A DNA stretch of 64,000 bases, taken from NCBI GenBank assembly GCA_026710945.1, contig JAPOQA010000050.1, forward strand, positions 1-64,000. Direction: 5' to 3'. A model generated the notes under the pieces. That model worked only from the letters and a program-made list of their open reading frames with translations. It did no database searches and was not told where the DNA came from. Of the stretch, positions 50,647 to 58,203 are shown one piece after another (within the stretch, counting starts at the first letter, position 1; each line of letters opens with the position of its first letter). The position numbers and the translations under genes were made by a program. Source of the stretch: Chloroflexota bacterium. Its GTDB lineage: Bacteria; Chloroflexota; UBA11872; VXOZ01.

Positions 50647-51981
50647 ATGGGACTTGGTCAAATGAGTGTCCAGGGCACCTTGGAGTTTAATGAAAGGTCC
50701 TTTCGCGATCCTGCATTCACGTCAAATCGTGATGCGCCGGTCCACCGATGGGTTCCCTGGATCGCAGGATACTCAAAGCACTTCGTTGCAGACGCAATCG
50801 CTCGCTATGCAAATGGGCATGGTATCGTCCTCGATCCATTTGCGGGAGTTGGGACAACGCTCGTGGAAGCGGATCTCGCTGGGCATGAAGCCGTTGGATT
50901 TGAGATAAACCCCTATGCCGCTTTCGCTTCACAGACCAAGCTGAATGCGCATCGCGTAAGCCCAGAACGCCTACGTAGAGCTGTACAAGAGTTCAGTGTG
51001 TTCATGGGCAGTGCGCTCTCGGAGGGAACTGCGCCACGCACGAGACCCCCTCAAGGTTTTCGTACGCGCTCCCCGTTCTATAGTCCTAAAGTTCAGCACA
51101 AAGTGCTGTTGGCACTGGACTTCATTAGCGAGCAAGATAGGCCAGTTGCCGACGTTTACCGGCTTGCGTTTGCTGCTTCAATGGTTGACTTTTCCAACTA
51201 TTCTTACGAACCGAGTCTGGGCCGCAAGGTGACCGTTGGTCGTCCCGAAGTAGAAGACTTTCCAGTTTCGGAAGTACTCGCCAAGAAAGTTACACTGATG
51301 GCAAATGATGTTGCTTGGTATCGTCACGCAAGGGTACCGGGAAGGCGACGAGATGGTCGCGTTTTCGAACAGTCTTTCTTTGATGGGTACCAGCAGATTG
51401 AAGAGCAAAGCGTGGACTTGCTGATCACTTCGCCTCCCTATCTCAACAACTATCATTACAACCGAAACACACGCCCCCATCTTTATTGGTTGGGGTACTG
51501 TAGCTCTCCGCAGGACTTTAAGCGCTTGGAGAAAATGAACTTCGGCACCTACTGGCAGAATGCCCGAGACCAAGCACATATTGATCTCGATCCATTGATT
51601 GAGGACCCAGAAATTCGCCAAACGCTCGATTTGGTTCGCCAGAAGAATCCGGAGAAAGGCATCTATGGCGGGAGTGGTTGGGCCAACTATGCAGCGCGCT
51701 ATTTCAACGACTGTCTACGTTTCGTGAACGGCGCAAGGTGGTGCCTCCGGTCTGGTGCAACTGCTTTGGTAGTCATCGGGAACAGCATTTTGCAGGGCGT
51801 TCCCATTCCGACGGACCGATTCCTAGCAAGCATCGCCGAAACTAGCGGATTCAGAATCGTCGCTATCCACATTCCGCGAGAAACAAGGGTGGGTAACAGT
51901 ATCATTGATTCCAGCGTACGTGCAGGATCGAGCAATGGCCACGGACTCTACGAAGCAGTTGTTGAGATGCGCCGGTTATGA
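50647..51981 (+). CDS. DNA methyltransferase, amino-type (alpha-like order)
   Basis: A 444-residue DNA methyltransferase. The SAM motif LDPFAGVGTTLVEADLAGH (about 62-80) comes first and the catalytic motif LLITSPPYLNNYHY with TSPPY at 261-265 later, with a long stretch between that may hold the recognition domain; this order is alpha-like. SPPY favours N4-cytosine or N6-adenine chemistry. It overlaps the next gene, an Eco29kI-like endonuclease, by four bases (ATGA), so they form one restriction-modification pair. As far as I recall M.Eco29kI itself is an m5C enzyme, so this pairing is unusual. An alternative start is the ATG at 50662. It follows guaB with 38 bases between. Confidence 0.86.
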   Translation: MGLGQMSVQGTLEFNERSFRDPAFTSNRDAPVHRWVPWIAGYSKHFVADAIARYANGHGIVLDPFAGVGTTLVEADLAGHEAVGFEINPYAAFASQTKLNAHRVSPERLRRAVQEFSVFMGSALSEGTAPRTRPPQGFRTRSPFYSPKVQHKVLLALDFISEQDRPVADVYRLAFAASMVDFSNYSYEPSLGRKVTVGRPEVEDFPVSEVLAKKVTLMANDVAWYRHARVPGRRRDGRVFEQSFFDGYQQIEEQSVDLLITSPPYLNNYHYNRNTRPHLYWLGYCSSPQDFKRLEKMNFGTYWQNARDQAHIDLDPLIEDPEIRQTLDLVRQKNPEKGIYGGSGWANYAARYFNDCLRFVNGARWCLRSGATALVVIGNSILQGVPIPTDRFLASIAETSGFRIVAIHIPRETRVGNSIIDSSVRAGSSNGHGLYEAVVEMRRL

Positions 51982-52562
51982 CGGTACAACTCTACGACCC
52001 ACTTACCTTTGACAATCTAATGATCGGGATGGTTTCGCACTTTGAGAAGCAGACAATGGTGGACATGGATGCCATAGGAGACGCCAACGGGCCAGGGATT
52101 TACTCGCTGTTTTACTCCGGGCAGCTGTCAATCTATAGGTCGATATCAGGGTCCATGAATCCCATTTATGTTGGCAAAGCCGTTCCTCCAGGATCACGGA
52201 AAGGGATTAGTGTTGACGTGAATAGTCCCGCGCTGCGTAGCAGGATCAGACAGCACGCAAAGTCCATTGATGAGGCAGAAAACCTTGACGCCTCTGAATT
52301 CAAGTGCCGCTACTTGGCAGTTGTTCCGGTTTGGATAACTTTGGCAGAACGGTTCTTGATTCAGTATTACACGCCAGTTTGGAATTTGTGCATAGAAGGA
52401 TTTGGCGTTCACGATCCGGGTAAGGGTAGACGTGGCAGCCAAAGGAGTTGGTGGGACACGCTTCATCCTGGCCGTGAATTGGCAAATAGGCTTGCAATTA
52501 CAAGAAGCGCCGATGAGGCAGAGAAGATGGCTATGGAGTTCTTCTCGTCGAATTCCGATTGA
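51978..52562 (+). CDS. Eco29kI-family GIY-YIG type II restriction endonuclease
   Basis: A 194-residue GIY-YIG nuclease of the Eco29kI family. The first strand is GPGIYSLFYSG with Tyr42, and the second IYVGKA with Tyr64. RIRQH carries Arg89 and His93, and AERFLIQYYTPVWN carries Glu124 and Asn136. The gaps Arg-to-His (+4) and Glu-to-Asn (+12) match the R.Eco29kI active site (Arg104, His108, Glu142, Asn154). GFGVHDPGKGRRGSQRSWWDTLHPGR near 141-166 is the family C-terminal block. R.Eco29kI cuts CCGCGG; the site here is likely similar but not proven. The ATG overlaps the methyltransferase stop. Confidence 0.9.
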   Translation: MTVQLYDPLTFDNLMIGMVSHFEKQTMVDMDAIGDANGPGIYSLFYSGQLSIYRSISGSMNPIYVGKAVPPGSRKGISVDVNSPALRSRIRQHAKSIDEAENLDASEFKCRYLAVVPVWITLAERFLIQYYTPVWNLCIEGFGVHDPGKGRRGSQRSWWDTLHPGRELANRLAITRSADEAEKMAMEFFSSNSD

Positions 52563-54078: not shown

Positions 54079-55296
54079 ATGAGTAGTCTTTCTGTTATGC
54101 CCAAGTTTCTCGCTGTTGACTTCTATTGCGGCGCTGGCGGAACCACCCGTGGCTTACTCAATGCCGACGGCTATGTTATTGCCGGAATCGACAACGATGT
54201 CGACTGTCAAGAGACCTATCAGCACAATAACATCAATTCGACATTGGATGCTGCTGTCCCCGCCTTCCTAGCCAACGACATGTTTCCCTCGTCTGTTGAG
54301 TATCCTCAGGGGCAACAGCATGAGGTGATGGCTAAGCTGGGAGAACTGATCCCACGCTATCGCGAAGCGGCAAAGAACGTACCCTTAATGTTCGCCATTT
54401 GTGCTCCATGTCAGTCCTTTAACAAGTTCGTTCAGCGGCGACTAACCGAGGGCAGAATCAGTGGCCGTGACCGTGAGCAAGACCTGCTTGCGCAAACTCT
54501 TGGGTTCATCGAACGTTTTCAGCCAGAGATGATTGTGTCCGAGAATGTGGCGACCATCAGGCGTGGCAGATACCGGAGAGTCTGGGAGTCTTTTCAACTT
54601 GCGCTGCGTGGCTTGGGATACGTTGTCGGAGAGGACACCGTTTGCGCGTCACGATTCGGAGTCGCGCAGCGCCGTCGTCGTTCAATTCTACTGGCCTACA
54701 GGAGTCAACATGGACTGAATCCCATTTTCAATCCGCCCATACCCTATCGTGACCCGGAAGCGTCGCAAATCTCCACGCATGATGCCATAGGACACTTACC
54801 TTCTCTTCAAGCTGGGGAAAGCCGTGATGGAATACCCAACCACGTATGTAGGAACTTGACGGAGATAAACCGTTGGCGCTTGATGTCGGTCAAACCAGGG
54901 GAACCAAATTTTGGCTTTGCGAAGAGCGAATTCGGGGACCTATCGCTGGAATGTCACCGTCGGCTAAGAGATGAAGGAAAGACAGGCTTTGGAGACGTAT
55001 ATACTCGAATGCATCCAGATCGTCCCGCTCCAACAATCACCACCAGATTCCACAGTGTGTCCAATGGGCGCTTTGGGCACTACGATGTAAGCCAAGTTCG
55101 AGCCCTTTCGCTTCGTGAGGGTGCTGCGCTGCAGTCATTTAGCGATGATTATGAATTCTTTGGGAGTGGCATGGATATCATCGCGAAGATGATCGGAAAT
55201 GCTGTTCCGCCAAAGCTATCCGCCTTTATGGCAGGGTGGGTTTTTGGGCTATGGAATGACACAGCGAGCGACCTGAAGCTTAGTTTAGGAGGATAG
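54079..55296 (+). CDS. DNA (cytosine-5-)-methyltransferase
   Basis: A 405-residue m5C methyltransferase. Motif I DFYCGAGGTTRG (14-25), motif IV APCQSFNKF with nucleophile Cys111, motif VI SENVATI (154-160), motif VIII GVAQRRRRSILLAY, the target domain (about 225-300), then motif IX-like DRPAPTITTRFHSVSNGRFG and motif X MIGNAVPPKLS. It methylates an unknown site. The gene opens a three-gene cassette with a GHKL ATPase and a Vsr-type endonuclease. The ATG has no ribosome site and lies 7 bases after a TAAAAT (54066-54071), so the mRNA may be leaderless. The stop codon TAG (55294) overlaps the AGGAGG that serves the next gene. Confidence 0.92.
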   Translation: MSSLSVMPKFLAVDFYCGAGGTTRGLLNADGYVIAGIDNDVDCQETYQHNNINSTLDAAVPAFLANDMFPSSVEYPQGQQHEVMAKLGELIPRYREAAKNVPLMFAICAPCQSFNKFVQRRLTEGRISGRDREQDLLAQTLGFIERFQPEMIVSENVATIRRGRYRRVWESFQLALRGLGYVVGEDTVCASRFGVAQRRRRSILLAYRSQHGLNPIFNPPIPYRDPEASQISTHDAIGHLPSLQAGESRDGIPNHVCRNLTEINRWRLMSVKPGEPNFGFAKSEFGDLSLECHRRLRDEGKTGFGDVYTRMHPDRPAPTITTRFHSVSNGRFGHYDVSQVRALSLREGAALQSFSDDYEFFGSGMDIIAKMIGNAVPPKLSAFMAGWVFGLWNDTASDLKLSLGG

Positions 55297-55298
55297 CG

Positions 55299-57731
55299 AT
55301 CAACAGTAAAGACCTATGCTTTCGTATTCTTCGAGCCGAGTCCGAGAAGGAAGTCTCAGCCATCATTGAATCAGAACCGATCCTATCGGATGCCAGTAAC
55401 TGGCATCCGATAGATGGCAGGGAAACAAACTTCAATGTAGTTACAAACCAGGCTTCTACCGGCAGCAAAGCTCTTACTGAGTTATGCACAAACATGGTGG
55501 ATGCCGTTCTTATGAAATATGCCTATAAGAAAGGTATTGACCTCACTGGCCCCGATGCACCGAAAACCGTGATAGACGGGGTTCGGGATCTCGTTCGACT
55601 CAAAGGGGCTCATAGCGGCATTCTGGCCGAAGTTGATGACGAAAGCTATCTGAGAGATTTTGCGGAGAGAAACCTAGTTATCGGTGTGACCGGCGGCACT
55701 CGTCGCGAAGATTCGCTTTGCTTTACGTTCGTTGACAATGGCGAAGGGCAGCACGCTAAGGACTTCGAAGATACATTCTTGTCCCTCAGTAAGGGCAATA
55801 AATCAGACATTCCCTTTGTGCAGGGTAAATACAACATGGGGTCTTCTGGAGTTCTGAACTACTGCGGAAGGCGATGGTACAAGTTGATAATTTCGCGCCG
55901 CTATGATGAGAGTGGTAATTGGGGATGGACTTTGGTACGCCGTCGTTCTGAAGCAAGCACGCCTATAGCCGAGTACTTTAGGCCTGTTGAGGGCATACCG
56001 TCTTTTCTAGGCTCGGTGCTGCACCCCCTAAAGCTTCAAAGTGGTGAGCCTGATTATAAGGTTCATCTTTCTTCTGGAACCATCATTAAGCTGTTCGATT
56101 ACTACATGGAGTCTGCGGCGAGCTTTAGAAACATCAGAGAGTCGATTAACGAGAACTTAGTCTCGACAATTTTGCCATTTCGATTGATGGATTACCGATG
56201 GGCTCCGCAGCGAACAGGACGAAGAAAAGAAGGTGTTGACGAGCGGCCATTCTATGGAATGGAATTTCTGTTATTGCGCAAAGAACCTGAAGATGTGGCC
56301 GAGTTTGAATCACAAGGCCAAGTGTATGAACCTAGACACGCTCAGCACATTGGAGACGATACTCACCCGGATCTGGGACACATATCCGTTAGCGCGATCG
56401 TGCTAGAGCGGGATCTACCGGGTTGGCTGAAGGCCCCACGCAATAATTCCAGGGTGTTTCACGCGGTTAATGGGCAAGTACAGTTCAAGGATAGTCGCGG
56501 CTATCTGTCACAGACTTGCAGGTTACCGGGGCTCAAGGACCGGATTGTCGTTATCGTGGATGCCAGCAACTTGTCTGAGGCCGCGCACAACGATGTGTGG
56601 AAGAGTGACCGGGAAAACATCCGGGTGACCGAAATTGGTCAGAGCTATAGAGACAGAGTCACTGAGTTGATAAGGAAATCGGATTACTTGAAGGAGCTTC
56701 AGCGCCGAATTGCGCGGGAAGAGACGGAAAAGGTAGCCCAGGAAGGACAAGTAGCGCTTTTTCAGGACTTAGTGGATACTGATCCAAGCATCGCGCAATT
56801 GTTGCCTGGTGGTGAATTGGTAAAGTTGCAGGGGGATGTTGGCAGGGCCAGGAAAGAGGATGAGGAATGGGAAGGCAAATACAGCCCGACGTTCCTGGAG
56901 TTGATAGGTAGATCAGTAAGGCAAGAAGGTGCAGAAATTGCCTTTGACGGCTTGCGAAGATTGACATTCAAGACAGACGTGGACAACGACTACCTAACCC
57001 GGCCCGACAATAGGGGGAGAGTGTCTGTTACTGCGGGCGTAGATGACAAGTTTTCTTACTCTACCGCCCTTCGCAATGGTCAACTTACTATCACGTTTCA
57101 ATCTTTATCGGACAAAGTTGATCCCGGTGATGAATTTGAGTTCTCGGTAGAGCTTCTCGATGATGCTATGCCGCAGTCAGTTACCGAGGAACTGAAGCTG
57201 ATAGTGGTTGAATCCCGTCGAGTCGATCCACCAGGGAAACCCAGTAACCGGAAACGAGATGGCCCTTGGGAACCGGGGGACGAGGAAGAGTCCACGGAAG
57301 GACGGACATTGCCGCCGATGAGGTGGCTTACTAAAGACGGGCGCTCAATCGGCGGGGATGAGACTGAACGTTGGCCCGATGACTTCACTGATCAGGACGG
57401 CGGCAAAGTTGAGGACTTGGGCGAGGATCAGAGAACCTATCTCATCAACTATGACAATGCCCATTTCCACCGATTCCTTGACAGTGAACGCGACGAACTA
57501 AACAAGAAAGTCGTCACCGAACAGTTTCGGATAAGCATGTTAGTCCTAATGATGGGTTTGGAAGACGCTTACTCCCGTATGGAACAAACGGACACAAAGT
57601 TTCAACTCGAAGAGTGCATCGACGAAATTCGCCGGCTCGCCGCTCAGGGAGCATCTACCGTGGTTATGTCTATCGCAAAGACTTTGCCAACCATCATAAA
57701 CCCCGCATCGCTTGCTGACGCAGACGATTAG
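55299..57731 (+). CDS. GHKL (MutL/MORC-like) ATPase of a restriction-associated cassette, noncanonical start
   Basis: About 810 residues if it starts at the ATC at 55299, six bases after AGGAGG. The ATP-binding GHKL fold is seen as N-box LTELCTNMVDA (Glu61, Asn65, Asp68), FVDNGEGQ (Asp146, Gly150) and GKYNMGSSG (176-184). The first in-frame ATG (55494) falls inside the N-box and would delete the catalytic Glu and Asn, so it cannot be the real start; no ATG, GTG, TTG or CTG occurs upstream in frame up to the stop at 55281. The remainder (about 250-810) is not recognised in detail, with a charged region near 455-490. Published work links prokaryotic MutL/MORC-like (paraMORC) ATPases to m5C methylases and Vsr-like nucleases, as here; its job, perhaps ATP-driven DNA remodelling in restriction, is inferred. 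Confidence 0.82.
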   Translation: MNSKDLCFRILRAESEKEVSAIIESEPILSDASNWHPIDGRETNFNVVTNQASTGSKALTELCTNMVDAVLMKYAYKKGIDLTGPDAPKTVIDGVRDLVRLKGAHSGILAEVDDESYLRDFAERNLVIGVTGGTRREDSLCFTFVDNGEGQHAKDFEDTFLSLSKGNKSDIPFVQGKYNMGSSGVLNYCGRRWYKLIISRRYDESGNWGWTLVRRRSEASTPIAEYFRPVEGIPSFLGSVLHPLKLQSGEPDYKVHLSSGTIIKLFDYYMESAASFRNIRESINENLVSTILPFRLMDYRWAPQRTGRRKEGVDERPFYGMEFLLLRKEPEDVAEFESQGQVYEPRHAQHIGDDTHPDLGHISVSAIVLERDLPGWLKAPRNNSRVFHAVNGQVQFKDSRGYLSQTCRLPGLKDRIVVIVDASNLSEAAHNDVWKSDRENIRVTEIGQSYRDRVTELIRKSDYLKELQRRIAREETEKVAQEGQVALFQDLVDTDPSIAQLLPGGELVKLQGDVGRARKEDEEWEGKYSPTFLELIGRSVRQEGAEIAFDGLRRLTFKTDVDNDYLTRPDNRGRVSVTAGVDDKFSYSTALRNGQLTITFQSLSDKVDPGDEFEFSVELLDDAMPQSVTEELKLIVVESRRVDPPGKPSNRKRDGPWEPGDEEESTEGRTLPPMRWLTKDGRSIGGDETERWPDDFTDQDGGKVEDLGEDQRTYLINYDNAHFHRFLDSERDELNKKVVTEQFRISMLVLMMGLEDAYSRMEQTDTKFQLEECIDEIRRLAAQGASTVVMSIAKTLPTIINPASLADADD
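55383..55413. promoter_or_regulatory. Perfect 15+1+15 bp palindrome in the start region of the ATPase gene
   Basis: CTATCGGATGCCAGT (55383-55397), one A, then its exact complement (55399-55413). It lies about 85 bases downstream of the methyltransferase stop and upstream of the first ATG, within the open ATPase frame. It could be a protein-binding operator, for example for the methyltransferase or the ATPase, or form an mRNA hairpin that acts on translation or frameshifting. Confidence 0.7.
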
Positions 57732-57735
57732 GAAC

Positions 57736-58203
57736 ATGGGCGACTTTCTAAGCAAAGATCGTCGTTCCGCGTTGATGTCCCGTGTAAGGAACCGGGGAAC
57801 CGCGACGGAACTGTATGTCCGTCGATCAGTGTGGTCTGCCGGCTTTCGCTACCGCCTCAACGTCCGCAAGCTGCCTGGTGCGCCCGACTTAGTGCTTCGT
57901 CGATACCGCACTGCCGTGTTGGTGCAAGGCTGTTTCTGGCATGGACATCATTGCCGGAAAGGACAGCAGCGACCGGCTACCAATCAAGACTTTTGGAACA
58001 AGAAACTGGATGGAAATATTGCACGTGACGCCGCCAATCAAGCAGAGCTAAGGAAGTTGGGTTGGTCGGTGTTCGTGGTTTGGGAGTGCCAATTATCGGA
58101 AGACACTGAGGCTTTAGTGGAAAACCTAAATGGGATGCGTTCAAGCAAAGACTCTAGATGTCTACCTGATAGCACGTCCGCCCGACGCGGCGAAACCCAT
58201 TAG
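57736..58203 (+). CDS. Vsr-like very short patch repair-type endonuclease
   Basis: About 155 residues from the ATG at 57736, just five bases after the ATPase stop. It matches Vsr mismatch endonucleases: SKDRRSALMSRVRNRGTATELYVRRSVW, GFRYRLNVRKLPGAPDLVLRRYRTAVLVQGCFWHGHHC (catalytic Asp region, metal His) and WNKKLDGNIARDAANQAELRKLGWSVFVVWECQL. Classical Vsr nicks T:G mismatches left by deamination of m5C made by Dcm. In a cassette with an m5C methylase and a GHKL ATPase it may instead be the restriction nuclease. The C-terminal 25 residues are low in structure. Translation is probably coupled to the ATPase gene. Confidence 0.9.
   Translation: MGDFLSKDRRSALMSRVRNRGTATELYVRRSVWSAGFRYRLNVRKLPGAPDLVLRRYRTAVLVQGCFWHGHHCRKGQQRPATNQDFWNKKLDGNIARDAANQAELRKLGWSVFVVWECQLSEDTEALVENLNGMRSSKDSRCLPDSTSARRGETH

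Follow-up and report, generated by a model that had tools for sequence, protein, structure and literature searches.

ATC, ATT and ATA are possible initiators in NCBI translation table 11, and start codons other than ATG, GTG, TTG and CTG are called non-canonical here. The infC gene, which starts with AUU, AUC or AUA, is regulated by its own product, IF3. Among the described genes that start in this way, infC begins with AUU in E. coli and with AUC in Streptomyces, while sigR of Streptomyces has a GTC start that is repressed by IF3 and a strong AGGAGGTG site (PMC5472188). For non-canonical AUN codons in E. coli reporters, the work quoted in PMC12864459 and PMC10666635 gives about 1% of AUG efficiency or less. 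A change of the rpoS start from ATG to ATA, on the other hand, cuts the protein up to 5-fold and does not abolish it (PMC12864459). Overlapping stop/start pairs are common, and in E. coli a 2-nt gap lowers reinitiation by 5 to 70% relative to overlapping genes, depending on the gene pair (PMC10666635). As to the protein discussed below, MORC and paraMORC GHKL ATPases have been described in restriction-modification operons (Iyer et al. 2008, PMC2292703).

The window, by which we mean the whole 64,000-nucleotide stretch of Chloroflexota DNA analysed, carries a three-gene cassette of a C5-cytosine DNA methyltransferase (MTase), a GHKL ATPase and a Vsr-type endonuclease (Table 1). The GC content of the cassette is 51%, against 59% for the window. 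The close relatives of the ATPase, at 46-61% identity, are 14 loci in bacterial genomes and 1 in a viral collection (L029-L042 and L109); they were recovered by profile scans, single-sequence scans of the genome and viral contigs having returned no ATPase relatives. No ATPase copy from the same species or genus was found among the genomes searched. The window MTase is 59-63% identical to the MTases that adjoin the ATPase in L029-L032, and the window Vsr is 68% identical to the Vsr found at the same place in L030.

Table 1. Features of the cassette and of the MTase-ATPase junction (window coordinates)
Feature	Position	Strand	Details
C5-cytosine DNA methyltransferase (MTase) gene, 405 aa, cassette gene 1	54079..55296	+	PF00145 E=2.6e-34; PADLOC MTase_II E=3.6e-60
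Shine-Dalgarno sequence AGGAGG, perfect	55287..55292	+	inside MTase 3' end; 6 nt before ATC 55299
MTase stop TAG	55294..55296	+	2 nt before ATPase ATC
ATC, proposed ATPase start codon	55299..55301	+	column of ATG in 11/15 close relatives; ATG/GTG <=5 codons away in other 4
MORC-like GHKL ATPase gene, cassette gene 2, 810 aa from ATC	55299..57731	+	frame open from 55284
Vsr-type very-short-patch endonuclease gene, 155 aa, cassette gene 3	57736..58203	+	PF03852 E=2.9e-28; TIGR00632 above cut-off

The ATPase lies in a stop-to-stop frame (55284-57731) whose first ATG, GTG, TTG or CTG is the ATG at 55494. The lack of any earlier canonical start had been remarked on in the initial annotation, and a codon-by-codon reading of 55284-55493 confirms it, the frame opening with TTT AGG AGG ATA GCG ATC AAC AGT AAA GAC CTA TGC. 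The ATG at 55494 falls within the N-box, LTELCTNMVDA, 3' of the N-box Glu and Asn. With local codon usage, the chance of 64 codons without ATG, GTG or TTG is ~2%, and without CTG as well about 0.3-0.6%; as any real gene has to begin at some codon, the relatives outweigh this chance figure in judging the missing starts. The Shine-Dalgarno sequence is indeed perfect, as had been noted, but it does not overlap the MTase stop as had also been claimed, ending instead 1 nt before the TAG.

The relatives fix the start. They share the ATPase, the MTase and usually the Vsr with the window, but unlike the window all 15 begin at a canonical codon, and in 11 of them an ATG stands exactly at the window ATC 55299, the window reading INSKDLCFRILRAESE where a relative reads MDSKKVCLRILRAESE. 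The start in the remaining four is displaced by a few codons (GTG at +2, ATG at -4, ATG at -4/-5 and ATG at +2). The closest relative, L029 (61% identity), has MDSKKVCLRILRAESEGEV against INSKDLCFRILRAESEKEV in the window, and distant relatives at ~25% identity agree on the start as well (L019, METKDLCMALMRA, ATG; L016, MDTADLCMALMRA, GTG). A canonical codon is found near the start, from -15 to +8 codons, in all 87 family members whose N-terminus could be read, a test that is weak alone, as at a codon frequency of 6% about three quarters of them would be expected to pass anyway. The argument therefore rests on the exact-column ATG matches. Because of these 11 matches, the fit of the distant relatives and the position of the ATC 6 nt after AGGAGG, the alignments place the ATPase start at 55299 with high confidence, whatever that codon does. 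An ATC start beside MTase termination, one of two readings offered in the initial annotation, is thus supported by the ATG column, the ideal Shine-Dalgarno spacing and the 2-nt gap. The 65 codons upstream of 55494, earlier said to look like protein, have proved to be so: the relatives align from the ATC on, and the predicted structure is confident over this region.

Residues E61, N65, D68, D146, G148, G150, Q175, G176, N179, G181 and G184 are invariant in all 58 aligned family members, which thereby conserve the N-box (E61/N65/D68), the G1 motif DNGEG and the positions of the G2 motif QGxxNxGxxG. In an AlphaFold2 model the pLDDT is 85 overall and about 90-97 for the N-terminal 65 residues, which are part of the fold. 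Among the matches listed for this model in the PDB, all are Hsp90/TRAP1/GRP94, TopoVI-B or MORC2, with E-values down to 2.7e-11 and low whole-chain TM-scores (0.2-0.3 of the query). PDB sequence searches found no relative of the ATPase, and the window protein alone has no match in Pfam, NCBIfam or PADLOC; HATPase_c_3 is matched by 5 of 11 aligned relatives. Judged by its motifs and predicted fold, the protein is a GHKL (Bergerat-fold) ATPase. Like the prokaryotic MORC/paraMORC ATPases (PMC2292703), it combines GHKL motifs with C5-cytosine methylase and Vsr-type nuclease neighbours; it differs from them in having no Pfam match, no helicase gene in its cassette and no GhXhhpXXRhl motif. This MORC-defining motif of the S5 domain (PMC2292703) is present in none of the 58 members, and we therefore call the protein MORC-like rather than assigning it to MORC itself. 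The match to paraMORC families 1-5 is limited to the neighbourhood (dcm and Vsr). The open frame of the ATPase extends over 815 codons, and the protein keeps 184 of the 187 columns that are invariant in the other 15 sequences, other members keeping 184 of 184 to 197. By these sequence measures the gene is intact and bears no signs of decay.

A second gene in the same genome also has no ATG, GTG or TTG at its start. This is infC, encoding IF3 (L117, 1489-2064, contig C14; also L134, 10002-10577), which reads ATA GTC AAA GA behind AAGGAG in all four genomes of the genus where infC was found; one of the four, L118, also has a TTG two codons 5' of the ATA. Sequence comparison thus indicates that infC is AUA-started here and that a non-canonical start is natural in this genome. 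We scanned 380 kb of the source genome for coding potential (316 kb of stretches plus the window; 242 ORFs), and six ORFs were flagged as lacking a canonical start. Of these, the ATPase and infC alone are credible, so missing starts are no general fault of the assembly. The other four have no Pfam domain, and two of them are, by eye, clearly antisense to ordinary genes.

The ATPase frame is offset by -1 from that of the MTase and runs uninterrupted through the MTase stop, features that would allow a -1 frameshift or fusion to make a single MTase-ATPase polypeptide, the other reading in the initial annotation. The relatives contradict it. In L029-L032 and L035 the MTase immediately precedes the ATPase in the same orientation and ends at its own stop, with gaps to the ATPase of -25, -4, +12, +13 and +2 nt, respectively; L029 has a 25-nt overlap, the L030 junction is an ATGA overlap, and L035 has the 2-nt gap seen in the window. 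Each of the five has a separate MTase stop, and the ATG of its ATPase occupies the aligned position; counting the window, the MTase terminates at a stop codon of its own in six of six co-directional cassettes. Eight other loci encode the MTase on the opposite strand, and fusion is hence not part of the system. Direct reading of the junction, AGT TTA GGA GGA TAG, reveals no slippery heptamer of the form X XXY YYZ, and RNA folding there is no stronger than in shuffled sequences (z=+1.2). We reject fusion, which is extremely improbable for a system in whose relatives the two genes each begin and end independently. Scarcely more credible is initiation at the ATA at 55293, two codons upstream of the ATC. 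This codon is in frame and overlaps the stop as ATAG, an arrangement of a common kind (PMC10666635), and infC in this genome uses ATA, but the spacer to AGGAGG would be 0 nt and the ATC column is precisely where 11 of the 15 relatives have their start.

Two alternatives leave the start position as it is and question the codon or its use. The ATC could be a base error, or the consensus of a minority strain, in a metagenome assembly, the true codon being ATG and the gene ordinary. ATC is one base from the codon aligned with it in those 11 relatives, and the window comes from a draft genome of 70 contigs that is 98.4% complete. Consensus assemblies seldom contain substitution errors, however, and the cassette otherwise looks error-free, with three intact frames; the scan yielded no other credible missing start than infC, and infC itself is a natural non-canonical start in the same genome. 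We regard an error as unlikely. The initial annotation held that homologues with a normal in-frame ATG would expose one; such homologues exist and fix the start position, but their ATG by itself is no proof of a sequencing error, given that infC in this genome likewise begins with a non-canonical AUN codon. Alternatively, the ATC is real and a recent natural start-loss has silenced the ATPase, or nearly so, as an early step in cassette loss. The codon differs from that of every relative, and restriction-type cassettes are often lost. Start-codon changes do arise, as with the rpoS change, which leaves part of the protein in place (PMC12864459). Against start-loss, there is no further lesion: the invariant residues are kept, the frame is full-length and the MTase and Vsr are intact, and a perfect Shine-Dalgarno sequence with a 2-nt gap should still allow some initiation. 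This history seems rather unlikely to us. Taken together, error and start-loss form a minority possibility that has to be reckoned with, because the ATC is not conserved and is unique to its lineage among those sampled.

The explanation that we favour, and consider probable, is that an intact ATPase starts at ATC 55299 as a lineage-specific AUC start helped by a strong Shine-Dalgarno sequence and by coupling. The relatives' ATG column, the Shine-Dalgarno spacing, the lack of decay, the modelled N-terminus, the infC parallel and the outcome of the scan all speak for it. Against it stand the absence of an ATC start from all 15 close relatives, whose starts are ATG or GTG, the canonical codon nearby in 87 of 87 family members, and the conservation of the rare codons of infC and sigR. 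We infer that, in the cell, the initiator tRNA would read the ATC as formyl-methionine. Ribosomes that have just finished the MTase would be positioned over AGGAGG, only 2 nt separating the stop from the ATC, and a share of them would re-initiate at that codon. Ideal spacing and MTase termination would place a 30S subunit on the ATC and partly offset the weak pairing, while IF3, which discriminates against weak third-base pairing, would hold initiation to a fraction of the ATG rate. ATPase output would then be low, methylase-dependent and held down by IF3 as for infC and sigR. The close spacing in four of the six co-directional cassettes, the window included, fits translational coupling, and ATPase levels might be tied tightly to methylase translation, as suggested earlier. 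Given the efficiency of ~1% or less quoted for AUN codons, output from the AUC could also be too low to matter.

With infC- and sigR-type genes the ATPase shares a strong Shine-Dalgarno sequence at working distance and the lack of ATG, GTG and TTG at the true N-terminus. It resembles infC in having an AUN codon behind a good Shine-Dalgarno sequence and no canonical codon at the true N-terminus; the infC codon, however, is conserved and has been proven functionally in model species, whereas the putative ATC start of the ATPase is confined to one lineage among those sampled. With sigR it has in common a non-canonical codon and an extended Shine-Dalgarno sequence in an operon whose products need a set ratio, but sigR, with its conserved rare codon, is the upstream gene, and in the window the rare codon belongs to the second gene and is confined to its lineage. 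The AUC start might even be adaptive dose control, keeping the ATPase well below the MTase so that DNA is methylated first, with the ATPase rising when IF3 activity falls under stress; the ATPase would then probably power a restriction or DNA-remodelling response. We consider such a role doubtful; if true, it would amount to IF3 control of a defence cassette.

The ATPase start is an unusual case of a known rarity and no new mechanism, with a good internal parallel in infC and a clear weakness in its lack of conservation. AUN-start genes are uncommon, and annotations often get them wrong. Gene-finding software that accepts ATG, GTG and TTG alone would begin the ATPase at 55494, and the intact enzyme, shorn of its catalytic Glu and Asn, would pass for a dead one; comparison with relatives can pin down a start where inspection of the sequence by itself leaves a choice. 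If real, the AUC start would be a rare non-canonical start in a gene other than infC, and one for which the dose in proportion to the methylase may matter.

The arrangement of the cassette varies among the relatives. In eight of them (L033, L036, L038-L042 and L109) the MTase is inverted, convergent with the Vsr and divergent from the ATPase, so that the same three genes are known in two arrangements. Vsr was not detected in the sequence examined beside the MTase and ATPase of L029, L031 and L032, the L031 sequence stopping soon after the ATPase, and may be optional in the cassette. A complete cassette of ATPase, MTase and Vsr is found on L109, a 78-kb IMG/VR contig classed as viral, which may reflect phage carriage or a host flank. 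Upstream of the cassette, the window contains a second restriction-modification pair (50647-52562), composed of an N6/N4 DNA methylase (PF01555, E=1.2e-9) and an Eco29kI-type endonuclease (PF09517, E=4.2e-49) with a 4-nt overlap, and this pair and the cassette form a small defence island.
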